64,000 nucleotides of DNA from Apostichopus japonicus (lineage: Eukaryota; Echinodermata; Holothuroidea; Aspidochirotida; Stichopodidae): assembly GCF_037975245.1 (NCBI RefSeq), contig NC_092569.1, positions 20,639,001-20,703,000 on the forward strand. The letters run 5' to 3'. The position numbers and the translations under genes are program-made. The notes under the pieces were generated by a model. The model was not told where the DNA came from, searched no databases, and saw nothing but the letters and a program-made list of their open reading frames with translations. The first letter of the stretch is position 1; each line of letters opens with the position of its first letter. Shown here piece by piece: positions 117 to 35,051 of the stretch.

Positions 117-198
117 ATGAGTGCAATTCAGTTTTCGTGTATCTTTCATTGCTTCCTTATTGGTATTTGCATTTATTCTTCGATGGCGGGAAGTGTTG
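117..198 (+). CDS. Gene A exon 1: signal peptide
   Basis: ATG at 117 opens 27 codons plus one nt with a hydrophobic core (FHCFLIGICIY) and small residues after it, followed by a consensus donor gtaagt. I prefer this ATG to the GTG at 121 in another frame because only this frame joins in phase 1 to exon 2. The length, 82 nt, equals that of the gene B signal exon. Confidence 0.65.
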
Positions 199-3100
199 GT
201 AAGTAGAGTAACGGAAAGTAGATCTAACATTTCATCTCATTACTTAGACGTTGTGAATTTAAAGAAAAAGCATGAATCAGCAAACTCGGATCAGTTATTA
301 TACTTGTAGCAAATATTTGTTATGCAACTGCATCGATGGTGATCTTTAAACTAATGGTTCTTATGATTTCAGCATTTTTCAAGTGCACAAAACGACACTC
401 AATTAAAGATGCCGTTATGCCTTGTGGTGGTAACTGTAGCAATCAAATGGAGCTAATACCGAGAACCGGTAAGTAACAGTTGCTATTAAGGTAATCTAAG
501 AAGTTATAAATATAGAAAAGTAATACATGTATCAAAGTAAAATCTGATTTTTCTTTCACTGCAAAAAGAACAGTGATTTCATTTAAAGCTTTATTTACAT
601 ATTATATTCAAGCGTATATGTCATATGCATAATAGTAATTTGAATGAACTGTTTGGTGAATATATAGAGAACCCCGAAATAACTGAATCTTAGTTAAACG
701 CTTTGCTAATTCATGTTAAATTATAGTGATGATATATTTACAACCATCCTCTATAAATAAAACTATATTTGGCATTCAACCCTCTGAATACTGGCCCAAA
801 GGGAAAGGAAGAAAAATCACCAAGACATCAAATAAATCTGTTTTAGAAGGAAATGTATATATGCATATTTTCCACTTATTTTTTTTTATGACAGCAGATG
901 TTCAGTTATCTGTTTCTTTACCCAGACTCACTGATATAGAAGATAGAATACTAGATAGACGACTAGAAATTACTCACCAGTATTGTTGCGGGACGAACTT
1001 TTCTACAGCATGTTCATATAAAATATTGTAGTAGATGGAGGTCGGAGCAAATTAACTTTACTCTTCTTTTCTTTCGTTAATGAAAATTACTGAAATGTTC
1101 CAAGTGTTCACAATTATTTATATTCAAGTTAGGAAGAAATAATTTAACACTCGATTACAGATTCGACATCATCCAAGTCGACTTTTCAGTCCTCAACAAA
1201 ATCAATAACCACAACAGGTTGGAAGTTAGTTTTATAATACGCTGTGCAAATCATATATATCAAAAGCGGTGCTCTGTTATCAGAGCTATGTATTTCGGGC
1301 ATTTGTTGATGTTCTGCAGAATAGTTTCTATTGACTCTTCAATTTGACCAATGTTGAGTATTTTACAGCAATCTTAGTAATACATCATATCCAAGCTATC
1401 CAAGCTGATATATTCATCAGCTTCATTGGTAGAGTTTCCATTCAAAGAATGAAAGGGAAAAAAACATCAAATTTATTCTGAAAATATCCGATTTACTGTA
1501 AGCATGTAGCTAGACGACAGAAAATAAATTTAGAATCAGTCTTTATTCACGAGTAACTGGCTATATTAAGTTTTTTCCTTTTTGTTCAACTATTCGAAGA
1601 CCATTTTCTTAGTACTATGATTATTGTTAGATTGACCTATGCATTTGTATATAGGCCTTTAGCTTTGGTATCATGCTTCTGGAAAAATATCCTTTACCAT
1701 ACCAAGCTGTTTTAGTAGTTTTATAACATCAGCATAGTCTCTTCTCGCTTATTGTTTTAAACTTTTATTTTACCAAACTTTTGTTTTATATAATTTCTTC
1801 AACCGACTGTGGAAAAAGCTACTCAGAGGGGTTTGAACGGAAGGAATGTATACGTCCGTTTCCCCATCAGGACTCTCGAGTTACATCCTAACATTATAAA
1901 ATCATTCTTAAGGTTTACTCTCAATATTTTCTTGGTAAATAAATTCACCATTTATTTTAACGAAATGCTCTTTTCATATTCTTGACTGTTAGGACGAATG
2001 TCGACGGATAATTTCCTGCAATCCACGAGTTCACCGGTAACCACATCAATAACTACAGAAGGTATAGATATAAAACTCACTTTTTATATATTATTGTGTA
2101 AACAAACTTTATTTACTTCCGTTTAGTGTTGTAATATATTTTAACGCATGGTAATAAGTCAAACGAAATGCCCGCTATAAGTTCTCGTTGCAGGGTTGTA
2201 TATCAGGAGTATTGTATGGGAATACTAAATGTAAGTAATATATTTAGTTCAATTCTTCTAGGCAGAGTCACAGACATAAACTTGAGTTAATCTTTACGTC
2301 CTACATGAAATGTGTGAAGAATAATATGGACAACATTATTTGCTTTCATATATCGTTATGTTAACAAATGGTAATGAGTCAAACGAAATGCTCGAAATAA
2401 TTGTATTTGTTTTTAGGTGGCATATCATTATTGCATGTATCGAACACTGATTTTAACAAATTTATTAATTGTAATGACTATATTATTTTACAACTACAAT
2501 TGATGAATCCAAAAAACAAGTATAATACACCATATCACTCATAACATATACCGTGGGGAAAATATCGACACAACGTAAAGTAAGAACGCAACAAGCTGAT
2601 AAGTATTAAGAATATGTACTTTGCTATCGAAATATTCTTTCGAAAATTTCTCGGCAAACATCAGAGAACCCGTTTTTAAAAGAAAAATGTCATCTTGACT
2701 GTTCACTTCCCTTCAGAGTGATGTATTTCTCTGTGAGATAAAACCTTACTATTCATTGTGGGAATAATGAAAAATAACAGTTACGCATATTTTGAAAATC
2801 CCGCTTATCAAAATTATGAATGCATTCCTTGGATATCTAGCAAAGCAGGCGGTGGACATTAAATGTGCATGGTAGACTTACGTGGACATACGTCTCTCAG
2901 TCTAGTGAAGCTTCACAAGACTATGCGCATGTATTGAGATGGTAAATCGCATGAAATGTGAATCCCGGTTATTTCATTGCCTGGTCCGGATAGACTTTTG
3001 GGGGATACCTCGTATTTTATATTGAAATATTATGGTTGTTACCGATGGACTATATATATTGTAGGTAAAACCATCCAGGCAGTTGAATAAGTTTGAATAA

Positions 3101-5196
3101 AGTATCCCGCAGATGGAGAGTAAGTTTTAACCGATGACCGAGCTTATGTGAGGGCATGAGTGAAATAATATAGTTTATACTGATCTACTGTGTAGATGAG
3201 AAATTAAATTCAATGTCTATATGGTAAACACTCAAGAAAGGAAATGTTCACAGTTGGCTGGGATCGAAATTCACCGCGCCATTCAAGAGATACAATTCAA
3301 TTGGATGACAATGCCCCTAGATCAAGTTGTTTTATACTAAAGTCGGATCCGATTAGCATTAAAAGATATGGTGATTGTATTATCATATAGTATCACCTAA
3401 ACCTTTGGTGGCATTGTTATTTTATTTGTATATATGTTTTTTATGTAACTGAATATGGAAGTCCTTGTGATTCCATTTGCATATTTGTATATATGTAGTG
3501 TATGTATATGAAAGTGGAAGTCCTTGCAATTATAGTTGCATATTTGTATATATGTAGTGTATGTAAATGAAAGTGGAAGTCCTTGCTAATCTATTTGAGT
3601 AATTTGTATATATGTATTTTATACTAAATAAAAACGGAAGTCCTTGTTTTTCTATTTGTATATATGTATTGTGTGTAATTGAAAGCGGAAGTCCTTGCTA
3701 ATCTATTTGAGTAATTTGTATATATGTATTGTATGTAAATGAAAGTGGAAGCCTCTGTTTATCTTCTATCATTATTTCGTGTCTAAATGCGATTGCATAA
3801 TACAACTTATATGAAGAAGATTATGTTTTAGTCGAGTTTCTATAACTCGTACCTCATATAAATGATTATAGATGTTTCTGTTTGACAATTAACATGATAG
3901 TTTATTCTTCAATCAAATATGTTTGTTTTTAGAAGACAGTCAAAACAATGGTATGTTTGATGAGACTTCTCCAGAGGTTTCTTCTATGATGTCAAACACA
4001 GGTAGGTTACTCTTAAATTAAGTAAGATTGTTTTAAACTCAACTAAAGTCTATAATAAAGAGTTGTGCATTTATACTTCACAATTGGAAAGTTTGTAATA
4101 TATTTGTGTGTGAGTAAACACTTAAGTATACATTTCTTCCGAATGTTCGGGACAGGTATCTACTACGTAACGAAAAAAAAAATCAACTATCTGTTAAATG
4201 TATTTTCCTTCTAAAATATCGTACTGGAATTTAAAATGGTGTTAAGATGTAATTAATCTTCGAGAAATGATGCATAAAATCAATTCAGTCACGTATTAAT
4301 TACTTAAACAAAAAAAAAGGTTGTTTAAATTGATAGTATCATGCGACGCTTTGGTCACTTACATTGGAACATTGTCGTAATTTATTAACAGATGTAGTTT
4401 TGATAAACGTGTAAGGCTGTTGCAGTAATGCCGAGACAGTTTCTCAGTATATTATAACTCACTCATTCTTCTTTAAAAAAAAAAGAAGGAAATTTGTAGT
4501 TTCATCATAGAGCAATAACAAATTAACATGTTCATTGATTTCGACAATGTTTGCAGGAGTGTAGGAAATGCAATAGATTTGGCTACATTTACGTGTCAGC
4601 GTTTCACGGCGGTGCTGACAGTGACAAGTCAGTTATAAAACGTCTTTAAATCTTTGCATTATTATTAACGTAGATCAGAATACTATTATTCTGAATTTAA
4701 AACAAGATGGCAGAATCCAAATATTGACATTTTCTTAATATACAACATATGCAATGTGGTAATGGAATGAGATGAAAAGCAGAAAACTCTCATTTAAATA
4801 CATAACAAAACAAAATCAAAAATCTCTTTTAAGATGAACAAAAACTCAAACTTTTAATTTGAACGATTTGCAACATGTATTTGACCAACCGAATTGCCGC
4901 TTTGCAAACAAAAAACCTGAGTATTTGTTGTCTACAAGAGATAATACAACACGTCAATGGTGTGTATGAGAGGCACCTTCAATACATTGCTCCGTTGGGT
5001 ATCCGTATATAAGTCACTCTAATTTAATGGATTTTGTAGCAAAATCACTTAGTTCAGCCACAACAATTTTTTTCAGTAGTATTTTGATTAGCTTAACAGA
5101 AGAATCACAACTAATGTATACAATTTTGGACACCTAGATTTAGTCCTACAACATTTATGGACAAATGTAAGCTAGCCAAGCCCATACGAATGGACC

Positions 5197-5271
<75 letters not shown>

Positions 5272-8200
5272 ATCGGATAGAAGACTAAAACTTACCAGCA
5301 TTGTTGCGGGACGAACTACTCTACATAATTTTTATATAAAATATTGTAGTAGATGGATGTCGCAGCAAATTAACTTTTACTCCTTTTTTCTTTCGTTAAT
5401 GAAAATTACTGAAATGTTCCAAGTGTTCACAATTATTTATATTCAAGTAAGGAAGAAATAATTTTACACTTGATTACAGATTCGACATCATCCAAGTCGA
5501 CTTTTCAGTCCTCAACAAAATCAATAACCACAACAGGTTGGAAGTTAGTTTTATAATACGCTGTGCAAATCATATATATCAAAAGCGGTGCTCTGTTATC
5601 AGAGCTATGTATTTCGGGCATTTGTTGATGTTCTGCAGAATAGTTTCTATTGACTCTTCAATTTGATCAATGTTGAGTATTTTACAGCAATCTTAGTAAT
5701 ACATCATATCCAAGCTATTCTCAGTAGGATACAGCCGGTACTTTTATATAGCGTAAATAAATGAACAACTCACCATTTTTAAGCATATATTCTTGTTAAT
5801 CTTGTAACGTGAGGATATTGCTTAATAGTGCATCCGTTAGAAAAGATAATATTCATCAGCTATATTGGTAGAGTTTCCATTCAAAGAATGAAAGGGAAAA
5901 ATCAAATTCATTCTGAAAATATCCGATTTACTGTTATCATGTAGCTAGACGACAGACATTACATTTAGAATCAGTCTTTATTCACGAGTTACTGGCTATA
6001 TTAAGATTTTTTCTTTTTGTTCAACTATTCGAAGACCATTTTCCTAGTACTATGATTATTGTTAGATTGACCTATGTATTTGTATATAGGCCGTTAGCTT
6101 TGGTATCATATTTCTGGATAAAGATCATTTAATAAACCAAACTGTTTTAGTAGTTTTATAATATCGGCATTGTCTCTTCTCGCGCATTGTATTAAACTGT
6201 GAGTTTACCAAACTTTTGTTTTATATAATTTATTAAACCGACTGTGAAAAAAGCTAGTCAGAGGGGTTTAATCGGAAGGAATCTATACGTCCGTCTCCCC
6301 ATCAGGCCTCTCGAGTTACATCCTAACATTATAAAATCACACTTTACCATTTACTCTTAATATTCTCTTAATAAATAAATTCACCGTTTATTTTAACATA
6401 ATGCTCTTCTTTTATTCTTGACTGTTAGGACGAATGTCGACTGACAATTTTCTGCAATCCACGATTTCACCGGTAACCACAGCAATAACGACAGAAGGTA
6501 TTGCCAAAGCTGTACACATCTTACATTTCCTACATGTTTAACAATTAATCGACATAAACATTTTTTTGATTTCAGACTATTGTATAATTTCAGTATTGAA
6601 TGTTCTGCTTCGTTCTCCTCTGTTATGTATAACTCAAATTTATCAACTTTGCATAAGATACGTTTATAGAGCTATGAAAAAAATGTCTTGTACAATAAAG
6701 CACATACAATAGAAAAGTAAGTTTAATTGATAAGCATAAATGGACTGAATGTTGGTGAATATTTCCTTAAATTCAGAACTGCAGAAATTAACTCTATTGT
6801 CGCTAGTATATGGTTCCATTTTTGTAAGTTATAAGAAGTATCGTCGTGATAAATCTCGAGTTGGATATGCTGTTTGGTTGACGGAAGGGCCAAATTCTGT
6901 GTTTTACCTGAAGCTCATTTCTTATCCTCCTGTTTAAACTCAGGAGGTGAGACTTAAATCCATTTTCACCGTTACTACTAGTATACGGGTACCACATCGC
7001 ACTACCATTATATGTGAATGATCGAAGAAGTTGACACCGAAGGGAAACTTGCCTTAACATCCTGATGAAATATAACATATTCCATTTTCAGCGGCGACCA
7101 CTACGCCACCATGCCCTTTGAATCAAGTCCTTGCTGACTGTGTATGCCAGGGTACATGTGACGACCCTCATGGGTGGTTTGGCTGCCATATAAACTGTAC
7201 TGGAGGAAGAACATGCGTATGTCCTGCCGGCTTTTTATTATTCGGACAGAATTGCATACCGGAGAGTGCTTGTGGGTGTTATCACGAAACGAGAGGAGTC
7301 ATACCGGTATTCTTAAACTGTTATTAGTCTAGTCATCATGTGTGTTCCTTAACAATCGTATCCGCCAAAACCAGTCTGCTCTATCCCAACAAAGTATCAG
7401 TTGTAGAGTTTTACAAAACACAGATAAAAGGAAAGTTTCTCCACTGCCAATGTCACATATTTGAATTTCATTGACGGAGACAGTGGACATGTCTTTATAG
7501 TAGGTGATAATAAACAAATGACGTCACCTTTGCTATTTCTTTGTAATTGTCATGCAACTAGTAGCTTTTACTGTTCTGGTAAATGTACTGAACAGATTTA
7601 ATATTCCATAGTGATCAAGCTACGAATCTTATTAATTCACGAAGTAATCACTCTACAATGGACGACACAAAATACCTGTTGATCTTATGATAATTCATTC
7701 TCTCCTTCTGTTCTTAGATCATGAAGTTGAAATAAAAACATAAAAAAAAGAGATTTAATCAAGCAATATTATTAAAAAGTCATGGTGAGACCCTTTTCAT
7801 TCAATAATAAATCCAGCATATCATAAATTAAGCATATTGCTCCCCAGAGCAAATCAAACGTGAAGCCAAGAACTTTCCAAGTAATACTCCGTCCACGCCC
7901 GGCCTGACTTAATCGAACACCTGCTCATATGTCTGGATGGACTAAATAAAGGTCATATGAAAAACAATTCCTTAAAGTTGTCATTTTTTTCCTTGAGAAC
8001 AGACTAGAACACTATTCCAGAGATGTAATCTACGTAATATCATCAGGGTGGCAACACTACATTCATATTTATTCACTTTTTCTCTGTATTAAGAATGGCG
8101 GATCGTACGTGACCATGGACTGCACGGAAACATGCTCATGTGAGAATGACGTTCTTGTATGCATAAACTATACATGCAGTGAACATGCGACGTGCCAAAA

Positions 8201-9788
8201 CCATAATGGCAATATGTCGTGCGATTGCAACGTGAACTATATGGGAAATGGGACAGTATGTAAACGTGTACAGGATTGCCAAGATCTTTACGAAAATGGC
8301 GTAATCAGTGAAGGTTTTCACTTGATATACCCGCTTACATGGTCAGGGGAACCTTTTGAAGCTTACTGCAAAGACGGATGGACTGTAAGAGGACTTTCTT
8401 TTGAGTTTATGTCCATGATAGTTGTCGTTTTATGTACGAGAAATAAGATGTACCATACTACACATTGTACTTCTATACCCCGCCCCTGAAATTTACTACG
8501 CGGGACTACGTAACCTACCTACTTCAACGTTAAAGAACAGAGTGTTGAAGAACAAGTTTTATTTTGTGCTTTTGTTCTAAACATAATATCAACGGACTGC
8601 TACTATATATTTCGAAGGCAGAAAATGCTTTGACAATATGGCTGGGCTGCAAATATCCACTTGAAGGGGAGAGTGTCTTTTCCTGTTAATATATAGACCA
8701 TTCATATAATCCATACACTGTCAAAACATCACAGAGGTACTTGTCTTGACTAATCTGGCTTCAAGTGGACCGTGAATACTTCCTTAATGAGCCTCAACTA
8801 ACTAGCATACTGATATAAACCTATTTTTGTTTTGCTGTTATTGTTTAGTTTTTTCAGCTCCGCGTCGATAACAAGGGTTTTTACGATAACTGGGATGGTT
8901 ACAGATCTGGCTTATATAGACGCGGAACTAATTCACATTGGATTGGAAACGACCGATTAGCCAACATAACTGCTCAACGGAACTACAAAATGAGAATGGA
9001 ATTTAAAAAACGGAGTAATAACATTACCCACTATCTTCAGTATGATCTCTTTCGAATTGGTTCAGAAGTCAACAACTATGCACTAGAAGAGCTCGGCAGT
9101 TATACAGGCAGCTTGGGTGAGTAAAACATTTTTATCGTAGCCTATAATTCAATGCACAGAATATGCCATGAACGAAATTTGTAAGCCTACATGACAAAGT
9201 GTGGAACCTGGTTTGTTGTGGTTACTGATCGACTGGGACTTTCGATATTTAAGGAGCTTTAGCATCATTTAATAAAAAAAACGTCAATTTTATCAAAATT
9301 TCTCAAAATCTTCATCGTCATCATTGTCGCCATCGTTATCATCGTCATCTTCGTTTTCGTCTCCGTGTTCTATTGACATTTTCATCTTCATTGTCATTCC
9401 CATCATCATAATAGACGATGATGAGAGTTATTTTAGTTTCGATTTTTCTTGAGAAAAAAAAGTAAATTTAGAAGAAAGATGGGTTTTTTTGCTGGTTACG
9501 TTTTCCTTCTCATTGTACACAGAATATGACTACATGGGATATCATCGCGGTAGTGAGTTTTCAACACATGACTCTGACAACGATAACGATACATCACGAA
9601 ATTGCGCGAATCATCATCTCGGTGGCTGGTGGTACAATGGGTATAATGATGAATTGACATGTACTACAGCGAATTTCAATGGAAATTTTGGCTATGGCTG
9701 GGATCATGGAGTGTGCATTTACGACAGGGAACGAATGATTTCTGACTGCGATATTGATACAACTGAAATGAAAATCAAACCTGTCTGA
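117..9788 (+). CDS. Gene A: secreted Ser/Thr-stalk-TIL-EGF-fibrinogen-related lectin-like protein (11-exon model)
   Basis: Exons 117-198, 373-468, 1161-1217, 1993-2061, 3933-4001, 5480-5536, 6429-6497, 7092-7306, 8094-8384, 8858-9116 and 9523-9788 join to 1530 nt, an uninterrupted frame of 509 aa plus stop. All borders are GT/AG and every internal phase agrees: phase 1 up to the TIL exon, phase 0 around the EGF exon, phase 1 before the last exon. Domain order is signal peptide (about 1-27), a small CxnPCxxxC segment (28-59), a Ser/Thr-rich stalk (about 60-166), a TIL-type domain (about 172-238), a VWC-like/EGF-like segment (239-295), and a FReD to the C-terminus ending TEMKIKPV. FReD proteins bind acetylated or other carbohydrate ligands in animal innate immunity; that role here is inferred. 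Several N-glycosylation sequons occur in the EGF and FReD parts. Gene B is its duplicate and gene C lies tail to tail with it. Inclusion of each stalk exon is a prediction, since they are phase-symmetric and could be skipped. Confidence 0.8.
373..468 (+). CDS. Gene A exon 2: short cysteine segment (FKCT...PCxxxC)
   Basis: Acceptor ttatgatttcag and donor gtaagt bound 96 nt, phase 1 to phase 1. The peptide carries FKCT, then PCGGNC, three cysteines. A related exon (FKCT...PCPGVC) exists in pseudogene G at 57760-57836, so this is a recurrent family module rather than chance. I recognise no named domain; it is faintly like the start of a VWC-type motif. Confidence 0.6.
1161..1217 (+). CDS. Gene A exon 3: Ser/Thr-rich stalk, 57-nt class
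   Basis: A 57-nt phase 1-1 exon encodes 19 residues dominated by Ser and Thr (DSTSSKSTF...SITTT), a likely O-glycosylated stalk. It is nearly identical to 5480-5536 and to gene B 30763-30819. Confidence 0.6.
1993..2061 (+). CDS. Gene A exon 4: Ser/Thr-rich stalk, 69-nt class
   Basis: A 69-nt phase 1-1 exon encodes GRMSTDNFLQSTSSPVTTSI and a short Thr/Glu end. It is nearly identical to 6429-6497 and to gene B 31738-31806. The acceptor follows ctgttag and the donor is gtatag. Confidence 0.6.
3421..3757. repeat. About 60-bp minisatellite, about six copies, in gene A intron 4
   Basis: Units of about 60 bp containing tttgtatatatgta and ggaagtccttg recur from 3421 to 3757. The equivalent intron of gene B keeps only about two units (28972-29085), so copy number differs between the paralogues. 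Confidence 0.85.
3933..4001 (+). CDS. Gene A exon 5: acidic/Ser stalk exon
   Basis: A 69-nt phase 1-1 exon (EDSQNNGMFDETSPEVSSMM...) with acceptor gtttttag and donor gtaggt. Gene B 29262-29330 is the duplicate with a few replacements. It is the only stalk exon not repeated inside gene A. Confidence 0.65.
5198..5268. repeat. (AT)n microsatellite, about 70 bp
   Basis: An almost pure TA run in a gene A intron. The duplicated site in gene B (about 30598) has no TA run, so the expansion arose after the duplication or was lost from the other copy. Confidence 0.95.
5480..5536 (+). CDS. Gene A exon 6: second copy of the 57-nt stalk exon
   Basis: 57 nt, phase 1-1, near-identical to exon 3. The flanking introns (about 5280-6500) also match about 955-2061, showing that a genomic block carrying two exons was duplicated. 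Confidence 0.6.
6429..6497 (+). CDS. Gene A exon 7: second copy of the 69-nt stalk exon
   Basis: 69 nt, phase 1-1, near-identical to exon 4 (GRMSTDNFLQSTISPVTTAI). It directly precedes the TIL exon, as its counterpart does in gene B. Confidence 0.6.
7092..7306 (+). CDS. Gene A exon 8: TIL-type cysteine-rich domain
   Basis: 215 nt, entering in phase 1 and leaving in phase 0. After ATTTPP come eleven cysteines in the order C..C.C...C....C...C...CVCPAGF...C...CGC. The first ten match the spacing order of trypsin-inhibitor-like (TIL) domains, including the CxCPxGF signature; the eleventh (CGCY) is additional. Such domains are usually protease inhibitors or structural modules of secreted mucin-like proteins; no inhibitory loop can be assigned here. 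The donor follows GVIP. Confidence 0.85.
8094..8384 (+). CDS. Gene A exon 9: VWC-like/EGF-like module and start of FReD
   Basis: 291 nt, phase 0-0. The first part (GGSYVTMDCTETCSCENDVL) resembles the short VWC-like segment that follows TIL domains in zonadhesin-like proteins. An EGF-like stretch CSEHATC...CDCNVNYMGNGTVC follows. The FReD then begins at about VQDCQDLYENG and reaches FEAYCKDGWT at the donor. Sequons NYT, NMS and NGT are present. Gene B 33352-33642 has the same length. Confidence 0.9.
8858..9116 (+). CDS. Gene A exon 10: FReD middle part
   Basis: 259 nt, phase 0 to 1, starting right after ttttcag. It encodes the WDGYRSGL...HWIGNDRLANIT...RMEF...YDLFRIGSE...SYTGSL region, corresponding to the WLGNEKIH and LRID-type core of FReDs. 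The usual FWLGNE is replaced by HWIGND. Two NIT sequons occur. Confidence 0.9.
9305..9425. repeat. Imperfect ATC/GTC-rich simple repeat in the last intron of gene A
   Basis: Runs of catcgtcatcattgtc-type triplets lie shortly before the last exon. The duplicate in gene B spans about 34570-34682. No coding sense is apparent. Confidence 0.8.
9523..9788 (+). CDS. Gene A exon 11: FReD C-terminal part
   Basis: Encodes YDYMGYHRGSEFSTHDSDND...NCANHHLGGWWYNG, the Ca2+-loop and pocket region, then a W-D-x-G-V-C...C segment and TEMKIKPV followed by TGA at 9786. The DSDND run fits the FReD calcium site. Five to six extra residues lie between WWYNG and the next Cys compared with genes D and F, and the usual GI.W...KG..YS tail is replaced by a two-cysteine segment. 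Possible polyadenylation signals AATAAA lie at 9966, 10145 and 10252. Confidence 0.9.
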
Positions 9789-13844: not shown

Positions 13845-14090
13845 TTACAGTAACGGTCTAAGTTTCATTTGCGTGGTCTTCATGTCACATTCGTGTTGTG
13901 CCTGGCTTCTATCTCCTAGGCAAATTTCAGTATCCCAGCCACCGGTATATATACCGTTCAGACTCGATGCATAACAGTTACGGTGCCACCACGCACCTGC
14001 ATGTCGAACGGCACAGTTGTTTCCGTGTTCTCTATCCTGTGTTGTAAACGGTTGTCCATTGTGGAAATCCAGGTAATCGTATGTTTTTTC
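13845..14090 (-). pseudogene. Gene C last exon: FReD C-terminal part
   Basis: Read on the minus strand: YDYLDFHNGQPFTTQDREHG, NNCAVRHAGAWWHRNCYASS, then GGWDTEICL and a second Cys, ending MKLRPLL and TAA at 13845-13847. It fits a FReD end; the Ca2+ loop is four residues shorter than in D. Confidence 0.75.
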
Positions 14091-14311
14091 CTAAAAGCAA
14101 ATCAAGAGGAAATGTACAAAAACAAAAATCCGACTTACATAATTTTATATTTCAAAGTCGTGTCTACAGTTTTGATAGCATAGAAGAAAATACGTAGAGA
14201 ATGCATGGAATAAAATAAAACAAATCGATGCCAAATGTAGGACTATTCGGAAATGTGAAAAAACATAAATATAGGCTGCTTTGAAATTAGACATAAAGGA
14301 AAGTGCTTTAC

Positions 14312-14570
14312 CGAAGCTCCCCGAGTAGTCTCCAAGATCCTCTAGCACGTAGTTGTCTGATTCAGGGCTAATGGGAAAAGAGTTCCATTGAAGATATATA
14401 TTTGCATCTAAGGGACTGAACAGTAAGTCGATCCTCAGCTCGTGTGTTCGCTGTTTTGATATGTAGTGAACCATTTCGTTTCCAAGCCAGAATTCACCTT
14501 CCAAACTTCCAAAGCCGTCTTTATAGTCTATCCAATCACGCCGGAAGTCAACGGATCCGTTAAAACGATG
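14312..14570 (-). pseudogene. Gene C FReD middle exon
   Basis: 259 nt, open throughout: GSVDFRRDWIDYKDGFGSLE then GEFWLGNEMVHYIS and NYVLEDLGDYSGSF. It keeps the canonical FWLGNE core. The acceptor is gttctttcag and the donor gtaaag. Confidence 0.8.
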
Positions 14571-15595
14571 CTGAAAGAACTACATTAATATAATCCTACT
14601 TTGTTGGTTTGGAGCCTTTTAATAACCAGTAACATATTTGCAGTGATAAGAAGCAGTTAGTTGGTAGTTTTCCTCCATACAAATATATAATCATGGCCGA
14701 GTTAAGTCTTCAATAAGAAGGAATTGAATAGTTCATAAAGTTATTTAAGTATATTTCTGCAGGCAGTGAGCATTTCTAGGAATAAAATGCAATGAAATAA
14801 GCTGTTTTGTTTTTGTAAACCAGGAAAATGTTGCTTCAACAATCTGTTTAAGGCAGCGACATGTTAGACCCCAACCATAAGGACTATTTGAACTGAAAAT
14901 CAAATGAAATACAGCTACTTAAATTATCGCCATATATTATACTTTAACACCCACCAACTCATACACACCCCTCTTATTACAATCATATTATTGAACACGT
15001 TTTGATCAAGAAAGCTTATAAAGAGGACACAAACACCAATCGTTATCTTTGACTCATTATACGAAGATCATTGTGAAGAACACCTCCCCCAAACTGCTAA
15101 GATAACTCTGTTTCGTTAAATATCTTAGTTTACAAGTCGTGTCTGGTGTAGCTTTCATTACTTTTGTACTAGTGCTGTCGTAGCATCACTGCGATCCGTA
15201 ACTTCTACCTAAAACCTTTGTTATTTTTTTTCTCATATTTTCAAATAGAATGCCAACCTTCATTGACTCTGATGCCATCATTAGGTCATGTCCAGAATTT
15301 CAATATTTCAGATTCGTCGTTCAGATGCAGCTTATTTTCCATTAAATATATTTACCTTTAAGTAAATACAGACATCAACAGTTGAAGGACTTGTGGCTTG
15401 ATGTTGTCGTATTTAGACTTGACGATGTGTTCAACTTAATGTGTGAAGCACAGCAAACTCTGTTGTATCTCCCAAGTGCAATAAGAGTTTCATTACCTGT
15501 GTTAGATAAGTTGTTTTTGACACTAATCTCAATAACAAATACCAATATTGGTGGTTGGGTTTATGTCTTCTTAAGCGAAACTCACTATCCAACCA

Positions 15596-15857
15596 TCCTG
15601 GCAGTAGACATCGAATGGATTGCTTGGTCAAGTAAGAGGTTAAATTTTCGTCAGTGGTCGTAAACATCTTGGCAGTCTCGCACATGCGCACACGTCACAC
15701 CGTCTCCACAGAAGGTTTCATTGCAAGAACAATAGTGGTCGTCATCTTTTTGCACACAGGTTGCATCAACACTACAGGAGTACGAGCTGCACGTTAGGAC
15801 GTTATTATTACAAGAACAAGTTTCTGTACAGCCTGCATTTACCTTTGATGTACCATC
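15596..15857 (-). pseudogene. Gene C EGF-like exon with premature stop
   Basis: Minus strand from 15857: NAGCTETCSCNNNVLTC, CSVDATC, CSCNETFCGDGVTC, VRDCQDVYDH, then TGA at 15651-15653. The remainder up to the donor at 15596 is frame-shifted but still recognisable (the CQDGWI-coding bases). It is 262 nt against 291 in D. Confidence 0.8.
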
Positions 15858-16013
15858 CTGACATGTATAAGTGTATATACACGCATGAATCATTAGTTGG
15901 TTCATTACTAAACCACTATATTTATATATTATTATGTCGGTCAAATCGCAGTGACCTAGTACGACTCAGCAGAGAGACATTGTGGATGCAACGCCTTCGC
16001 ACCATTCAATCTC

Positions 16014-16240
16014 ATGGGCCCAAAATTTAGGAAGGACATGACTAACCTTTCTTCTTCTCCCCCCCCCCCCTATCTCCCATTGTTCTCCCTCTGTTACCAT
16101 TCTCCTCTTAACTCTCTTGCACTTTTTTCTCTACACTTTCCTATTTTTGTCCTTCTGCAGTTTATTCACTATCCTCTTCACTTAATTTTATATTTGTCTC
16201 TCTACAGTTTATCTCCTACCTCTCCTCTTCCCCCTGTTGG
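16014..16240. repeat. Pyrimidine-rich tract shared with the D locus
   Basis: C/T-rich on the plus strand with a run of C at about 16059. The same tract lies at about 42170-42395, and similarity between the two loci ends near here, marking the far end of the segmental duplication. Confidence 0.7.
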
Positions 16241-16480
16241 TGTCCTAACCACTCGACCACAGTATTCTACTGGTGTGTGAATGCGTATAAATTGGCCTTT
16301 AATAACTGTCATTTTGGGCGTATTACGCAAGTGTAATGATTGTACAGAGTGCACCCTGGTGCTTTGAATCTGACAAAAAAGATTCAAAGCACCAGGGGTG
16401 CACTCTGTGGTCGAGTGGTACGGACTTCAGTTCGTGACACAAGATCCGGGGTTCGATTCCTACCTTCGTCTGATGAGTCC
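16240..16480. mobile_element. tRNA-derived SINE-like fragment with a strong hairpin
   Basis: A near-perfect inverted repeat (arms 16344-16370 and 16381-16408, loop about 10 nt, one bulged C) runs into a tRNA-like head: A-box-like tggtcgagtgg at 16408-16418 and B-box ggttcgattcc at 16450-16460. A second A-box-like piece on the minus strand at about 16241-16260 (cctaaccactcgaccaca) indicates an inverted neighbour copy. There is no complete cloverleaf, so I call it a SINE remnant, not a tRNA gene. Confidence 0.6.
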
Positions 16481-16559
16481 CAAAAGGAGGAAACCGGTCG
16501 TTTTTTTTTTTACCGCTACAATTTTTAATTGTAACGTTAGCCCTACTATGCACTGTATA

Positions 16560-25915: not shown

Positions 25916-26213
25916 ATAATATTTACTGTTGTCTCTTTGTGTATGGGGTGAAAACAATCATCTTTGTCCTCGTTACACTTGTATTTACCAGAGAAGTGAT
26001 CCTCTTTTTGACGAGGCTTCACAAAAAAAACGAAAAATGCTTACATCGATAATTAATGTAACAATTGACTGTTTGGCTGCATGTGCTGTCGACACACTTT
26101 ATTTTACAAATCCCCATTAATTAAAAAAAAAAACATTATTAACAAAATGCATAGACCTAAGTGTGATGTATTAGTGTCAAAACATTGAATATATCTAGAT
26201 CCTCTATACTTTT

Positions 26214-26445
26214 TATAGTACAAATTAGCACTTTCATGGTAAGTTTTACTATACAAATTAGCACTTTCGTTGCATATTTATAGTACAAATTAGCACTTTC
26301 ATGGCAAGTTTTATGATACAAATTAGCACTTTCATGGCATATTAATAGACTAGTAAAAATTAGCACTTTCATGGCATATTTTATAGTACAAGTTAGCACT
26401 TTCATGGCAAGTTTAATAGTAAAAATTAGCAATTTTAAGGCAATT
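26214..26445. repeat. Minisatellite of about 37 bp, about six to seven copies
   Basis: Units containing acaaattagcactttcatgg recur from 26221 onward with small changes. The repetitive open frame across them on the minus strand is a by-product. Confidence 0.9.
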
Positions 26446-27267
26446 TTAATTTGCATCTGTCTTACATTTAAGTATATTATACAGCCAGAGTTGTTTTCAC
26501 TTTGGTTAATGGCGGCTTGTTAGCTATGATTGCACTTCCATAGAGGATGAGTTATAAATTGAAACCAATTGTGTATTTACTGCAAAGTGCCCTTTAAATG
26601 ACACTCATATTACTTTAGTAATAAATTAAAAGAATGAACGTGAAATTGACCAGTAAGCTTGCCTCAGAAGTCAACAAACAACTAGTTAATATTTAGCCAA
26701 CCATGAATTGAATAGCGGAATATTTGATTATGTAGATCAAACTTAAAATAATCAATAGCTACACATCTAATCGACAAAAGTATGATTAGAATGAACCAAT
26801 ATCTAAAATAATTTCCATATTATAAAATATTACTTTACAATATCAACTTAAAACTTGCCCTGGATATCTGATTGTTTATTAAGAATTAGTACAGGTCTTT
26901 TATCTTCTTGTTATATCGCGTTTTAAGCTACCTGGTGATGTATGTGGTGTAAGCCTTGTTCGCCGCAAACTCATTAAATCTTGTTTTCGTAACACAATTT
27001 CTTCATTAAACCAGATCACATTCGATCAATGTTCATGAATGAAAAAAACAAGAAACTAATGTTGAAGTACGTATGGGCCTAAACTGACATATAACCGAAT
27101 TTGTTTACTAGTGTTCTAGTTTGATAGAGGTACGGATAACCTTTGTAGCAGTGCACTAGATTATTTACTGCCATAATGAAAATTGCAAACACGCAAACCT
27201 CTTTCTGTATTACTTATAGCATAGCGACTTTCCTTCTATAAGAAAGCATTGCCAGAAATTCACGGAC

Positions 27268-27349
27268 ATGGCAAACTTTCCCAATCGGAATCTTGCAATA
27301 ACTGCTGTCTTACTTTATGCTAATATCATCCACATTTCGCTTGCTATGG
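27268..27349 (+). CDS. Gene B exon 1: signal peptide
   Basis: ATG at 27268, 27 codons plus one nt, hydrophobic core LAITAVLLYANIIHISLA, then donor gtaggt. It has the same length (82 nt) and phase as gene A exon 1 with no clear sequence similarity. Confidence 0.65.
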
Positions 27350-30300
27350 GTAGGTTTGATTATTTTTATTTTCTTTTATATATTTGGTTTATAATGTAAA
27401 ATGCGTATCAACTAAGATGTTCCATTAACTTAAAGCTAACTTGTCTGCTCATATTACTTGTACTTATTTACTATGATTTTTAAGTTTTTCTTTCTCAAAC
27501 AACTTTCTGATGAAAGTTGTAAGACATAAGTACACTTGCAGATAAATACACTCAATTGAATATTGCGTTGCTTGTTATCTGGAATTACATCTCGCCCAAT
27601 ATGTTGCTGCCAGCGAGCACGGGCTACTGGCCTAACCACAGTGATAATGACAGCTAATATATCTGATATAAAATTATTCTAGACCAACCTTACGATGTAC
27701 TGTTGTGATTGAAATGTAACGAGCTTCTCTGACAACTGATTCACACAGAGATTAAAGTAATTACTTTAAATTTTCAAGTTTTTTACCATTTTTTTTTTTA
27801 CCAAAATGCATCAAACTGGATTTGTCGGGATTAAACATATCCATAGTACTTACTGTAATCCTAATAGCACATGCTACCGATTTATAGCACCATCCGGTTT
27901 TCACTGTGGTACAAAATTTGGAGATTTATAGTAGATACTGTGTTCTCTGTATCTATGGGTGTCTCTGGGGTATTAGGCAGTTTTGGTGATGAGAGGTGAT
28001 AAAGATTAGTGTATAGATAGTCGTTGTTTTCATTTTTTTTATTCTCTTATTTCGTGCCTTTGTTCTTTAAAACAAACAGGCATATGCGAGTTCGAGAACT
28101 ACATGAAAGGTCTCTCCCATCGGAATCCCCAATTAAGTGGTAACTTTATTTTATTTTGTACACATTCTTAGCTGCTATTTATTCAAATTGGTTTAGCTGG
28201 GTTTTTGGTATGAGACTTATCTGTTATCCGTTATTTTTCTTGATAAATACGTTATGAAGCAAAAACAACAAAATTGTCAAATGTAACTTGTGTATAAGAA
28301 ATCATTGTGATAGACAACTCAGACAACAATCTAACGAAAATCCTCTTCCGTGTGAGAGATACTGTTGTTCAAAAGTTACAATAGGATATTGTCATTTTTT
28401 CATTTGTGATGTCATTGCTCTTCTAATTTTCCTTTTTTTCAAGGTGTCAATGTAAAGTGTGACATCACATCTTGACAATGAAACCAATTACCTCGTGAAC
28501 TCTTATTAATAACTTCAATGTTTTAAATTCCATATTTTTTCATAACCTATCCATATTACATGGATAAAAATGTTAATAAACTACCAGTAAAGAAAGGATA
28601 TAGTTTGACAGTTCAAACCATAGGTAGATGATACATATCTATAGACTTGTCCCAGTCGTGTTTGTAAAAGAAACATTTAAACTCTGATAGCTCCCAAGCG
28701 AGATGCGAGCTAGTTGGAAAAGTTGTTTCTCATTAATATTTCTGTCAGTATAAATGATGATTGTTGTATTTTCTTCTCTTTGTGTTATGAAAAATATGTA
28801 AACAAGAATAATACAATTATATAAATGTTTTAATCTAAGTAATAACACAAACTCTTAACTATTTGAATAATAACAGCGGCTATCTGTACCCGTTCCACAT
28901 CAGAGAACCCGTTTTCCAAAAAAAAAAATTCAACTTGACTTTTCACTTCCCTTCAAAGTGATGTATTTCTAAGTCCTTGTTAATCTATTTGAGTAATTTG
29001 TATACATGTTTTGTATACTAAATGAAAACGGAAGTCCTTGCAATTCTATTTGAGTAAATTTTATGTAAATGAAATTGGAGTCTTTGTTTATCCTCTATCA
29101 CTATTTCGTGTCTAAACGCGATTGCATAATACAACATGTATTACGAAGATGATTTTTGAGTCAAATTTCTATAACTCGTACCTTATATAAATGGTTATAT
29201 ATGTTTTTGTTTGAAAATTAACATTATAGTTTATTCTTCAATCAAATATGTTTGTTTTTAGAAGACGGTCAAAACAACGGTATGTTTGATGATACTTCTC
29301 CAGAGGTTTCTTCTATGATGTCAAACATAGGTAGGTTCCTCTTTAATTAAATTAAGTAAGAGTGTTTTAAACTCAACTAAAGTCTATTATAAAGATTTGT
29401 GCGTTTATACTTTACAAAAGGAAAGTTTGTAATATCTTTTTGTGTGAGTAAAAACTTAAGTATACATATCTTCCGAATGTTCTGGACAGGTATCTGCTAC
29501 GTAACGAACAAAAAATCAACTATCTGTTAAATTTATTCTCCTTCTAATATATTGTACTGGAATTTGCAGGTATAGTAATTTCTAATAAAAAATGGTGCTA
29601 AGCTGTAATTAATCTAAGAGAAATGAGAAATGATAATCAATTCAGTCACATATTAATTACATAAAGAAAAAAATGTGTTTAAATTGATAGTATCATCTGA
29701 CGCTTTGGTCACTTACATTGGAACATTGACGTAATTTATTAACAGATGTTAGTTGTGATAAACGTGAAATGCAGTTGCAGTAGTGCTGAGACAGTTTCTC
29801 AATAAATTATATAAAAAAAGGAAATTTGTAGTTTCATCATAGAGCAATAACAAATTAACATTTTGATTGATTTTGACAATGTTTATGATGACTACCGTGC
29901 TTATGATGACGACCGTGTTTAAACTTGTCTACATCATACAAGTATTGATTGATTTGATTATTGCAGGAGTGTATGAAATGCAATAGATTTGGTTACATTT
30001 ACGTGTCAGCGTTTCAGGGCGGTGCTGGCAGTGACAAGTCAGCTATGAAACGTATATAACACTATGCATTATTCTTAATGTCGATCAGAATCCTATTATT
30101 CTGAATTTAAAACAAGATGGCAGAAGCCAAATATTGACATTTTCTTAATTCACAACAAAATGGAATGCTATGAAAGCAGAAAACTCTCATTTGAATACAT
30201 TACAAAACAAAATCAAAAATTTATTTTAAGATGAACAAAAAGTCAAACATTTAATGTGACCGATTTGCAACATATATTTCACAAACCGAAATGCCGCTTT

Positions 30301-33300
30301 GCAAACAAACAATCTCATTATTTGTTGTCTACAAGAGATAATACAAAGTGTCAATAGTGTGTATGAGAGGCAATTATAAAGCGTTGTTCCGTTTGGGTAT
30401 CCGTATATAAGTCACTCTAATTTAATAGATTTTGTAGCAAAATCACTTAGTTCAGATACACAACAATTTTTCAGTAGTATTTTGGTGAGCTTAACAGAAG
30501 AATCAGAACGAATGTATACAATTTTGGACACCTAGATTTAGTCCTACAACATTTATGGACAAATATAAGCTAGCCAAGCCCATACGAATGGACCTATAAA
30601 GGAATCGGATAGAAAACTAAAAATTACTCACCAGCATTGCTGCGGGACGAGCTATTCTACATTATGTTCATATAAAACATTGTAGTAGATGGAGGTCGGA
30701 GCAAATGAACTTTTCCTTTCGTTACTGAAAATTACTATTGATAATTTTACACTCGATTACAGATTCGACATCACCCAAGTCGACTTTACAGTCCTCAACG
30801 AAATCAATAACCACAACAGGTTGGTATTTAGTTTTATAATACGCTGTGCAAATCACATAAATCAAAAGCGGTGATGTGTTATCAGAGCTATGTATTTTTG
30901 GGATTTTATGTTGTTCTGTTCCTGACAATCGTTACAGAACAGTTTGTTTTGACTCTTCAATTTGAGCATTGTTTAGTATTTTAAAGCAATCTGAGTAATA
31001 CATTGATCCAAGCTATTCCTATAATAGGATACAGACGTTACTTTATATAGCGTAAATAAATTAACATTTTACAATTTGTATAGCATATATTTGTGTTAAT
31101 TTTGTAACATGCTGATACTACTTGAAAGTGCATCCGTTAGAAATGCTATATTTATCAGCTTCATTGGTAGAGTTTCTATTCAAAGAATGAAAGGAAAAAG
31201 TTCAAATTCATTCTGAAATATCCGATTTACTGTTAGCATGTAGCTAGACGACAGACATTACATTTAGAATCAGTCTTTATTCACAAGTTACTGGCTTTAC
31301 TAAGAATTTTCCTTTTTGTTAAACTATTCGAAGACCATTTTCTTAGTACTATGATTATAGTTAGATTGACCTATGTATTGGTATATAGGGCTTTAGCTTT
31401 GGTATCATGTTTCTGGAAAAAGGTCATTTAATATACCAAACTGTTTTTATTAGTTTTATAATATCGGCATTGTCTCTTCTCGCCATTGTATTAAACTGTT
31501 ATTTTACCAAACTCTTGTTTTATATAAATTCTTTAACCGACTGTGGAAAATTCTAGTCAGAGGGATTTAATCGGAAGGAATGTATACGTCCGTTTCCGCA
31601 TCAGGACTCTCAAGTTACATCCTAACAATATAAAATCATACCTTACCATTTACTCTTAAAGCCTTTTAATATTTTCTTGGTAAATAAATTCACCGTTTAT
31701 TTTAACATAATGCTCTCTTTATATTCTTGACTGTTAGGACGAATGTCGACAGCCAATTTTCTGCATTCCACGAGTTCACCGGTAACCACAGCAATACCGA
31801 CAGAAGGTATGGCCAAAGCTGCACACATCTTACATTTCCTACATGGATAAAAATTAATCGACATACAAATTTATTTCATTTCACACTATTGTATATTTCT
31901 GTATTCATTGTTCTGCTTCGTTCTCCTCAGTTATGTATGACTAAAATTAATCAACTTTGCATAACATACGTTTACAGAGCTATACAAAAATGTCTTGTAC
32001 AATAGAGCACATACAATAGAAAAGTTAGTTTAATTGATAAGCATAAATGGACTGAATTTTGGTGAATATTACCTTACATTCAGAACTGCAGAAATTAATT
32101 CTATTGTCGTTAGTATATGGCACCACTTTTTTTGAGTAATAAGAAGTATCGTCGTGATAAATCTCTAGTTGGATATGATGTGCGGTTGACGGAAGGGCCA
32201 AATTCTGTGTTTTATTTTCAGCTCATTTCTTATCCTCCTGTATAAACTCAGGAGGTGAGACTTAAATCCATTTTCACCGTTACTACTAGTATACGTGTAC
32301 AACATAACACTACCACAATATGTGAATGATCGAAGCAGTTGACACCAAAGGGAAACTTGCCTTAACATCCTGATGACATATGACATATGACATATTCCAT
32401 TTTCAGTGGCGACCACTACGCCACCATGCCCTTTGAATCAAGTCTTTGCTGACTGTGTATGCCAAGGTACATGTGAAGACCCTCATGGGTGGTTTGGCTG
32501 CCATATAAACTGTACTGGAGGAAGAACATGCGTTTGTCCAGCTGGCTTTTTACTACTCGGACAGAATTGCATACCGGAGAGTGCTTGTGGGTGTTATCAC
32601 GACACGGGTGGAGTTATACCGGTATTCTTAAACTGTTATTAGTATATTTTTCATGTGCGTACCTTAACAATCGTATCCGCCAAAACCAGTCTGCTCTATC
32701 CCAACAAAGTATCAGTTGTAGAGTTTTACAAAACACAGATAAAAGGAAAGTTTCTTCAGTTGCCAATGTCACATATTTGAAATTCATTGACGGCTACAGT
32801 GGACGACACAAAATACCTGTTGATCTTATGATGATTCATTTTCTGCTTCTGTTCTTAGATCTTGAAGTTGAATTAAAAAACATAAAAAGTAGGTTTAGTC
32901 AAGCGATATTATTAATGGCTGTTTATGTGCAATAAAAACAAACCATAGTGAGACCCTTCTTATTCAATAATCAATCCAAGTTTGACGAAAGTGTGTGCAA
33001 GGGAGACTATGCGATGACGGGATCATTTTAGCGTACTGTTTTGTGGAACACACCTCCAATAAAAAAAATAAAAAAACTATAACAAGCATATTGCTCCCCA
33101 GAGCCAATCAAAAGTGAAGCGAAGAAATTTCCAAGTAGTACTCCGTCCACGCCCGGCCTGACTTAATCGAACACCTGTGCCCTCAAATATGTATGGACGG
33201 ACTAAATAAAGGTCATATGAATACAATTCCTTAAAGTTGTATTTTTTTCCTTGAGAACAGACTAGAACACTATTCCAGAGATGTAATATACGTAATATCA

Positions 33301-35051
33301 TCAGAGTGGCAACACTATATTCATATTTATTCACTTTTTCTCTGTATTAAGAATGGCGGATCGTACGTGACCATGGACTGCACGGAAACATGCTCATGTG
33401 AGAATGACGTTCTTGTGTGCATAAACTATACATGCAGTGAACATGCGACGTGCCAGAACCACGATGGCAATATGTCGTGCGATTGCAACGTGAACTATAT
33501 GGGAAACGGGACAGTATGTAAACGTGTACAGGATTGCCAAGATCTTTACGACAATGGCGTAATCAGTGAAGGTTTTCACTTGATATATCCGCTTACATGG
33601 CCAGGGGAACCCTTTGAAGCTTATTGCAAAGACGGATGGACTGTAAGAAGTCTTTCTTTTGAGTTTATGTCCATGATAGTTGTCGTTTTATGTACGAGAA
33701 ATAACATGTACCATACTACACATTGTACTTCTATACTCCGCTCCTGAAATTTACTACGCAGGACTACGTAACCTACCTACTTCAACGTTAAAGAACAGAG
33801 TGTTGAAGAACAAGTATTATTTTCTGATTTTGTGCTAAACATAATATAAACGAAGTGAAACTATATATTTCAAAGGAGCAGAAAAAACGTTGATAATATG
33901 GCTGGGCTGCAAATATCCACTTAGAAATGTGAGGGGATAGTGTCTTTTTCTGTTAATATATAGACCATTCATATATTCCATAAAAAACATCACAGAAGTA
34001 CTTTTCTTGACTAATCTGGCTTCAAGTGGACCGTGAATATTTCCTTAATGAGCCTCAACTAACTAGCATACTGATATAAACCTATTTTTGTTTTGCTGTT
34101 ATTGTTTAGTTCTTTCAGCTCCGCGTCGATAACAAGGGTTTTTACGATAACTGGGATCGTTACAGATCTGGCTTATTTAGACGCGGAACTAATTCACATT
34201 GGCTTGGAAACGACCGATTAGCCAACTTAACTGCTCAACGGAACTACACAATGAGAATGGAATTTAAAAAACGGAGTAATAACATTACCCACTATCTTCA
34301 GTATGATCTCTTTCGAATTGGTTCAGAAGTCAACAACTATGCACTAGAAGAGCTCGGCAGTTATACAGGCAGCTTGGGTGGGTAAAACATTTTTATCGTA
34401 GCCTATAATGCAATGCACAGTTTATGCCATGAACGATATTTGTAAACCTATATGATACAGTGTGGAACCTGGTTTATTGTGGTAACTGATCGACTGGCAC
34501 TTTCGATTTTTAAGGAGCATTAGCATCATTTATAAAAAAACGTAAATTTTCTCAAAATTTCTCAAAATCTTCATCGTCATCATTGTCCCCATCGTTATCA
34601 TCGTCATCTTCGTTTTCGTCTTCGTGTTCAATTGACATTTTCATCGTCATTGTCATCCCCATCGTCACAGTAGACGATGATGAGAGTTATTTTAGTTCCG
34701 ATTTTTCTTGAGAAAAAAAGTAAATTTAGAAGAAAGATGTTTTTTTTTTTGCTGGTTTCCTTTTCCTTCTCATTGTACACAGAATATGACTACATGGGAT
34801 ATCATCGTGGTAGTGAGTTTTCAACATATGACTCTGACAACGATAACAATACATCACGAGATTGCGTGGGTGATCATCATCTCGGTGGCTGGTGGTACAA
34901 TGGGTATAATGATGATTTAACATGTACTACAGCGAATTTCAATGGAAATTATGGCTATGGCTGGGATCATGGAGTGTGCATTTACGACAGGGAACGAAGG
35001 ATTTCTGACTGCGATATTGCTACAACTGAAATGAAAATCAAACCTCTCTAA
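27268..35051 (+). CDS. Gene B: secreted Ser/Thr-stalk-TIL-EGF-fibrinogen-related lectin-like protein (9-exon model)
   Basis: Exons 27268-27349, 28080-28139, 29262-29330, 30763-30819, 31738-31806, 32407-32621, 33352-33642, 34119-34377 and 34783-35051 join to 1371 nt, an open frame of 456 aa plus stop with all phases agreeing. Signal peptide 1-27, unique segment 28-47, Ser/Thr stalk about 48-112, TIL about 113-184, VWC/EGF-like about 185-240, FReD to the end. From exon 3 onward it is the duplicate of gene A, lacking one 57+69 stalk pair. Exons 1 and 2 do not resemble those of A although the signal exon has the same length and phase. Gene D lies tail to tail downstream. A secreted recognition or agglutinin role is inferred from the domains only. 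Confidence 0.8.
28080..28139 (+). CDS. Gene B exon 2: short unique exon
   Basis: 60 nt, phase 1-1, acceptor aacaaacag after a T-rich tract, donor gtaact. It encodes GICEFENYMKGLSHRNPQLS with one Cys. It lacks the FKCT...PCxxxC pattern of gene A exon 2. Supported by phase and splice signals only. Confidence 0.45.
29262..29330 (+). CDS. Gene B exon 3: acidic/Ser stalk exon
   Basis: 69 nt, phase 1-1, duplicate of gene A exon 5 (EDGQNNGMFDDTSPEVSSMM). Confidence 0.65.
30763..30819 (+). CDS. Gene B exon 4: 57-nt Ser/Thr stalk exon
   Basis: 57 nt, phase 1-1 (DSTSPKSTLQSSTKSITTT), duplicate of gene A exons 3 and 6. Confidence 0.6.
31738..31806 (+). CDS. Gene B exon 5: 69-nt Ser/Thr stalk exon
   Basis: 69 nt, phase 1-1 (GRMSTANFLHSTSSPVTTAI), duplicate of gene A exons 4 and 7. 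Confidence 0.6.
32407..32621 (+). CDS. Gene B exon 6: TIL-type domain
   Basis: 215 nt with the same eleven cysteines as gene A (CPLNQVFADCVCQGTC...CVCPAGFLLLGQNC...CGCYHDTGGVIP). It enters in phase 1 and leaves in phase 0. Confidence 0.85.
33352..33642 (+). CDS. Gene B exon 7: VWC-like/EGF-like module and start of FReD
   Basis: 291 nt, phase 0-0, very close to gene A exon 9 (for example QNHDGNMSC for QNHNGNMSC; DNGVISEGF for ENGVISEGF). It ends FEAYCKDGWT. Confidence 0.9.
34119..34377 (+). CDS. Gene B exon 8: FReD middle part
   Basis: 259 nt, phase 0 to 1: WDRYRSGLFRRGTNSHWLGN, DRLANLTAQRNYTMRMEF, YDLFRIGSEVNNYALEELGS. HWLGND is closer to the canonical FWLGNE than HWIGND in gene A. Confidence 0.9.
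34783..35051 (+). CDS. Gene B exon 9: FReD C-terminal part
   Basis: Starts after tacacag and ends KIKPL with TAA at 35049. It carries DSDNDNNTSRDC (Ca2+ loop), HHLGGWWYNGYNDDLTC with the same insertion as gene A, and GWDHGVCIYDRERRISDC. One codon longer than gene A in the loop. Confidence 0.9.

Follow-up and report, generated by a model that had tools for sequence, protein, structure and literature searches.

A clustered gene family in the sea cucumber Apostichopus japonicus that joins a TIL-TILa-EGF neck to a fibrinogen-related head

Background

Fibrinogen-related proteins (FREPs) have been described as the most expanded gene family of the sea cucumber Apostichopus japonicus, where they are tied to regeneration and where expanded tandem genes with a fibrinogen-related domain (FReD) lie mainly in clusters on LG02, 21 of them in tandem on Scaffold75 (PMC5638244). 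FREPs are also present in the coelomic fluid of holothurians (PMC12119288). Here we analyse a 64,000-nucleotide stretch of the A. japonicus genome (C9:20639001-20703000, the window in what follows), animal DNA with introns in which an earlier note had placed a cluster of genes for secreted proteins with a Ser/Thr-rich stalk, a TIL domain, a VWC/EGF-like module and a FReD. Like the published FREPs, these are expanded and clustered FReD genes. However, the main text of that study, to which our comparison was confined (supplements outside), has no words beginning with TIL or EGF, and neither the stalk, TIL, TILa nor a neck-head contrast is found in the text compared (PMC5638244). The expansion and clustering of FREPs in A. 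japonicus are already in print, and it is the order TIL-TILa-EGF-FReD that is apparently new. The earlier note knew of no named family with this order, and we found no report of it in the open-licence literature, subscription journals, supplements and animal sequence databases being outside the search; existing annotations elsewhere may already show it.

TILa, or the E module, follows TIL in the D assemblies of mucins, VWF and FCGBP. Published D assemblies have the order VWD-C8-TIL-E and owe their flexibility to E (PMC10880436). The genes described here share TIL followed by TILa with FCGBP, the gel-forming mucins and VWF, which are also the best matches among solved structures, but the full order of the D assembly is not found in them, since the models are without VWD or C8 and end in EGF and FReD. 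With ficolins, tachylectin-5A and FIBCD1 they share a FReD with a Ca2+ motif; they differ from these in changed acetyl-pocket positions and in an added Cys pair near the C-terminus, from ficolins also in that no collagen-like region was found by Pfam, and from tenascin in that no FN3 was found by Pfam. In snail FREPs the FReD head is diversified among paralogs, and IgSF domains, not TIL-TILa-EGF, precede it. The serine protease inhibitors BSTI and C/E-1 have the same ten-Cys TIL pattern as the cluster and stand alone, without TILa. In a ctenophore, TIL has been described together with a C-type lectin domain (PMC11797021).

Results and discussion

Gene models and domain order

Copies were located by stop-to-stop translation and by tblastn of exon pieces, and the genome searched comprised 671,581,487 bases in 35 contigs. 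Two genes on the + strand, A1 and A2, are open throughout (Table 1). Both had been proposed before as complete models and both are present, although the lengths then given (509 and 456 amino acids) were not reproduced, our models having 480 amino acids in 10 exons (A1) and 439 in 8 exons (A2). The order in both is a predicted signal peptide, a Ser/Thr-rich stalk, TIL, TILa, EGF and FReD. Pfam on the joined A1 model gave TIL at residues 142-195, TILa at 196-249, EGF_3 at 231-262 and Fibrinogen_C at 266-479, and the order was identical in A2, with all domains above the curated cut-offs in both. The TILa match (PF12714) overlaps the EGF. In the module earlier called VWC/EGF-like the EGF part stands, whereas VWC is ruled out, the Pfam match being to TILa. 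All 9 introns of A1 and all 7 of A2 have GT and AG, and the splice phases agree as had been noted (phase 1 throughout the stalk junctions, followed by 0, 0 and 1). In the A1-A2 alignment 9.3% of the noncoding bases differ and 4.4% of the coding ones, and this, with the genome-wide recurrence described below, speaks for more than a chance arrangement. The 5' exons are the uncertain part of the models; the scan for signal exons picked up that of A1 but not that of A2, whose donor is weaker.

The TILa, the EGF and the first FReD segment are carried by a single exon (8094-8384 in A1), and the equivalent single exon is open in A2, B2 and C. Because one exon holds all three, the TILa-EGF-FReD join needs no RNA proof. 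The earlier note had named TIL and FReD exons lying in separate genes as the finding that would overturn the arrangement; the shared exon largely rules this out, so that such an objection could concern the TIL exon alone, and the candidate explanation of two separate genes was rejected on this link.

Recurrence along the genome

The same arrangement recurs widely. Scoring covered 150 TIL exons (of 558 first-look candidates) and 150 TILa-EGF-FReD exons (of 1222); first-look FReD candidates numbered 2733 genome-wide. Of the 150 TIL exons, 100 are followed on the same strand by a TILa-EGF-FReD exon at a distance of no more than 1.5 kb and 103 at no more than 6 kb, with a median distance of 399 bases, while the controls within 6 kb paired only 2/150 (opposite strand) and 1/150 (wrong side). 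The 47 TIL exons left unpaired do not imply the absence of a partner, both lists being the best 150. Contig C9 holds 140 of the 150 TILa-EGF-FReD exons and 132 of the 150 TIL exons. The genome thus has about a hundred pairs of a TIL and a TILa-EGF-FReD exon, almost all of them on a single piece of chromosome size, a scale that was missed when a gene cluster was first proposed. These counts refer to exon pairs; A1, A2, C, L034, L036, L037, L038 and L039 were read at gene level. A listed TIL exon lies upstream of 13/15 TILa exons at least 90% identical to that of A1, of 33/38 at 45-55% identity and of 56/97 at 38-44%. The 15 genes of the first class are called A-type below. We regard the TIL-TILa-EGF-FReD architecture as real.

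One locus of C9 (L035 539-4829, in C9:32163501-32168500) has six tandem copies of the TILa-EGF exon with a spacing of ~794 bases. Only the last copy is joined to a FReD start, and the others may be repeated necks or alternative exons.

The neck

The best match of the TIL-TILa-EGF stretch among solved structures was FCGBP (6.1e-13). A profile made from eight TIL sequences also found FCGBP (2.6e-15) and then VWF, MUC5AC and MUC5B (7e-7 to 1e-5), with lower matches to EGF domains of the LDL receptor (~5e-5), MUC2 (0.014) and, weakly, the inhibitors BSTI (0.031) and C/E-1 (0.95). The TIL of the cluster therefore appears to be of the D-assembly kind. Neither VWD nor C8 was found by Pfam in the A1 and A2 models, and no VWD lies on C9 among the matches listed (150 of 357 candidates scored, the tail of the list aside). 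The TIL-TILa pair serves here as a neck without VWD. The earlier note had offered an inhibitor or a multimerisation module. Inhibition is the weaker reading because the TIL profile is D-assembly-like and TILa follows, and protease inhibition is disfavoured; as for multimers, the mature A1 and A2 models have 26 cysteines each, an even number, which does not point to an unpaired Cys that could serve disulfide links.

The stalk

Ser and Thr make up 49% of the 114 residues between signal and TIL in A1 and 40% of 72 in A2, against 12% in the remainder of the protein; these figures include the probable exon 3933-4001 and its A2 counterpart. A scan for Ser/Thr-rich exons gave 9 matches on the + strand and 1 on the - strand and is weak by itself, and since two reversed-sequence controls gave 4 and 3 matches, the stalk proposed earlier rests on recurrence and not on the scan. 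The stalk exon was found in 13 copies, all 13 upstream of A-type genes and serving 12 of the 15; for 10 of these 12, a TIL, a TILa and a last exon are listed as well. An internal duplication in A1 (954-2065 and 5276-6501) gives an extra pair of stalk exons, and stalk length thus differs between paralogs. Ser/Thr-rich exons of phase 1-1 are also found upstream of gene C and of a relative, L039 (C9:13.88 Mb).

The head

The C-terminal Fibrinogen_C match (PF00147) scored 1.8e-33 in A1, where it ends one residue before the last, and 1.3e-32 in A2, and the domain resembles the heads of angiopoietin, tenascin and ficolin. The Ca2+ motif D-x-D is retained in A1, A2, B2 and C and reads D-R-E in the broken B1. 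This fits the recognition-type head first suggested for these genes.

In FIBCD1, Tyr405, His415, Tyr431 and Trp443 hold the acetyl methyl group and Ala432 lies at the base of the pocket (PMC3908420). At positions 405, 415, 431 and 432, A1 has His, Thr, Trp and Asp by our placing of these positions on the alignment. Trp-Asp instead of Tyr-Ala, together with a shorter loop, is found in the A, B and C heads, C retaining the His, and in the A heads the pocket Cys is preceded by six additional residues. On this alignment, which includes ficolin-2, we rejected an intact canonical acetyl pocket. In addition, A1, A2, B1 and C have a Cys pair (C-x10-C) before the final M-K that is in none of nine FReD last-exon pieces from other loci (L001, L002, L003, L004, which is incomplete, L006, L016, L017, L020 and L021; L002 and L003 are alike, as are L006 and L016). 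Four of the nine (L002, L003, L020 and L021) have SYADG or SYANG. It is this Cys pair, and not the pocket changes, that sets the cluster apart.

Two FReD observations were made elsewhere in the genome. At L001 and L012 (C22:3278301-3278942) the FReD is almost entire in one open frame, whereas those of the cluster are spread over three exons. No PF00147 match in the genome scores better (3.6e-62), and the pocket Trp-Asp is shared. On C1, three places at 17.14-17.28 Mb and 21.45-21.49 Mb have five, five and four VWD matches on the + strand, followed after ~15-21 kb by a FReD match that lies on this strand too, in an open frame of 294 amino acids. These could possibly encode a multi-VWD protein ending in a FReD, a candidate source of the join of TIL-TILa to FReD.

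Steady necks and varied heads

Between A1 and A2, dN/dS over 406 codons was 0.40, with 0.15 for TIL-TILa-EGF and 0.59 for the FReD. By exon it was 0.23 in TIL, 0.09 in TILa-EGF-FReD start, 1.29 in the FReD middle exon (1 synonymous and 5 nonsynonymous changes) and 0.78 in the last one; the stalk exons gave 0.69 to 1.51 from very few changes. The neck is below neutral (p 0.0005). Averaged across the other 14 A-type genes, identity to A1 was 94.6% in the TILa-EGF-FReD-start exon and 84.3% in the last FReD exon, a difference with p 0.002 in a Wilcoxon test and p 0.006 when near-duplicates were counted once (n=10); the TIL exon had 90.7% (12 genes). Five A-type genes have a last exon only 71-73% identical to that of A1 and a TILa exon 93-95% identical; in one of them, L038 (on C5), the last exon is 5.6 kb away and one TILa Cys is lost. 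The last FReD exon is open in 15/15 A-type genes, while a stop was found in 1 of the 13 listed A-type TIL exons, two A-type genes being without a listed TIL. The neck is more conserved than the last FReD exon among A-type paralogs; selection on the head is unproven.

Possible role and alternatives

The explanation we prefer, with a probability of roughly 0.55, is a family of secreted lectin-like proteins of modular build, in which a steady neck carries a varied head and which act in recognition or adhesion in body fluid or mucus. The signal peptide would export the protein, and the stalk, rich in Ser and Thr, encoded by small exons of phase 1-1 and probably O-glycosylated, would hold it in mucus or off a surface. 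The TIL-TILa-EGF neck, rich in disulfides and of the type seen in the D assemblies of mucins and VWF, would link this stalk to a FReD head that may bind its ligand aided by Ca2+. Because the acetyl-pocket positions are changed, an N-acetyl group bound in the standard manner is an improbable ligand. Through duplication and loss there would arise many copies, more alike in their necks than in their heads, so that the cluster would most likely supply a set of recognition or adhesion proteins; we likewise infer the tissue and an immune or adhesive role. In this form, a defined order with a mucin-type neck would give part of the FREP family a structure and a likely site of action (body fluid or mucus), and it raises the testable question of whether paralogs sharing one neck have different ligands. 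A bolder version seems to us rather unlikely: a germline set of at least about a hundred secreted lectins, nearly all on one chromosome, with a constant mucin-derived neck, a diversifying FReD head and an acetyl pocket rebuilt for new ligands, the echinoderm counterpart of the snail FREP system with a different stem.

Several points weigh against a family of recognition or adhesion lectins, beginning with the evidence itself, which is drawn from genomic sequence. The four more distant genes L034, L035, L036 and L037 showed no stalk exon in the stretches of up to ~4 kb that were read, and the signal-exon scan found no such exon for gene C. The pocket changes are not unique, L001 having the same Trp-Asp, and Cys-His is in only 3/9 of the other-locus FReD pieces (L002, L003 and L021); even in ficolin-2 two of the pocket Tyr are replaced by Phe, so the pocket test is not strict. 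Between A1 and A2 the FReD shows no significant departure from neutrality (p 0.29), and the neck-FReD contrast in this pair is borderline (p 0.03 or 0.11 depending on rounding). Furthermore, a single diverged subtype might account for the five heads at 71-73%, and a neck that stays steady while the last exon varies is also what gene conversion would produce by homogenising the 5' exons. The pattern could then be a by-product: in an array that turns over fast, conversion and relaxed constraint would bring it about without any selection for diversity. We take this alternative to be less likely than the preferred reading and place it first among the live ones, ahead of a matrix role and of protease inhibition. 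Besides the neutral-like FReD, it is in keeping with the broken copies B1, A3 and B3, the ~13 kb duplicated block described below and equal-scoring pairs at 35.0 and 35.6 Mb, but it has to accommodate the last exons open in every A-type gene and the FReD Cys and Ca2+ positions retained in A1, A2 and C.

We judge it unlikely that the proteins are structural components of matrix or mucus, or adhesives, whose TIL-TILa would pack with mucin-like partners and whose FReD would bind matrix glycans, the copies serving dosage. TIL-TILa is indeed a D-assembly module and the neck is under strong constraint; flatworm adhesive proteins bear VWD-C8-TIL (PMC6410801) and A. japonicus FREPs increase in visceral regeneration (PMC5638244). 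Yet paralog heads vary more than necks, and C9 holds none of the VWD matches listed. Less probable still would be a targeted protease inhibitor, with the TIL inhibiting a serine protease and the FReD placing the protein on a surface. The ten-Cys pattern would suit this role, and the loop between the fifth and sixth Cys, which we take to be where the reactive site of TIL inhibitors lies, varies among copies (HIN, HIK, YNN, FKS, IRN, NRD, EDT and TTS). However, TILa follows TIL, the profile is far closer to D assemblies, with inhibitors ranking below the EGF domains of the LDL receptor, and in A1 and A2 this loop runs into an N-C-T sequon. Finally, models built from genomic letters might have mis-joined exons of neighbouring genes, but with TILa, EGF and FReD start in one exon, the TIL exon just upstream on the same strand in two thirds of the scored cases (100/150) and agreeing splice phases, this is extremely improbable.

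Other copies in the window

Seven copies were found in the window (Table 1): A1 and A2 are open, C is open where seen, B2 is shortened in its last FReD exon, and B1, A3 and B3 are broken. No TIL exon was found for B1 and no later FReD exon for B3. The TIL and TILa-EGF exons of gene C lie beyond the window end (L009 2158-1949 and 1420-1133). Eight long open reading frames elsewhere in the window had no Pfam match.

Table 1 Features of the gene cluster, in window coordinates
Feature	Position	Strand	Remarks
A1, whole gene	117..9788	+	
A1 exon 1, signal peptide (predicted)	117..198	+	27 codons + 1 nt, phase 1; hydrophobic open reading frame, GTAAGT donor
A1 stalk exon	1161..1217	+	72% Ser/Thr, phase 1-1; among the 13 stalk-exon copies
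A1 stalk exon	1993..2061	+	50% Ser/Thr, phase 1-1
A1 probable stalk exon, least certain	3933..4001	+	phase 1-1; splice sites kept in A2 (29262-29330); not picked by Ser/Thr scan
A1 stalk exon	5480..5536	+	second copy of 1161-1217
A1 stalk exon	6429..6497	+	second copy of 1993-2061
A1 TIL exon	7092..7306	+	PF01826; phase 1 in, 0 out; weak donor
A1 TILa + EGF + FReD-start exon	8094..8384	+	PF12714, PF12947, PF00147; phase 0-0
A1 FReD middle exon	8849..9116	+	phase 0-1
A1 FReD last exon with stop	9523..9788	+	
B1	13848..15863	-	TILa-EGF, FReD middle and last exons; broken in FReD start
A2, whole gene	27268..35051	+	
A2 exon 1, probable signal peptide	27268..27349	+	length as A1 exon 1; A1 signal found no match here
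A2 probable stalk exon	29262..29330	+	
A2 stalk exon	30763..30819	+	among recurring stalk-exon copies
A2 stalk exon	31738..31806	+	Ser/Thr scan
A2 TIL exon	32407..32621	+	
A2 TILa-EGF-FReD-start exon	33352..33642	+	
A2 FReD middle exon	34110..34377	+	
A2 FReD last exon with stop	34783..35051	+	
B2	39972..43240	-	TIL 43240-43016, TILa-EGF-FReD start 42009-41725, FReD middle 40648-40379, last exon shortened at 39972
A3	53259..55858	+	broken; TIL, TILa-EGF, FReD pieces
B3	56215..56961	-	broken; TIL tail and TILa-EGF-FReD start
C	63091..64000	-	FReD last and middle exons

The duplicated block of ~13 kb (3654-16241 and 28996-42391, copies ~25 kb apart) carries a convergent pair of genes, A on the + strand and B on the - strand, and the decay of B1 and B2 took different routes. 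At the TIL-TILa border, the TIL exon of B2 carries four residues (GCYH) in tandem repeat and so gains a Cys. Beyond gene C, a further TIL-like exon on the - strand has an altered Cys pattern (L009 8320-8457). The comparison of the window with itself also gave short direct repeats at 3423-3764, 26212-26448 and 45566-46501.

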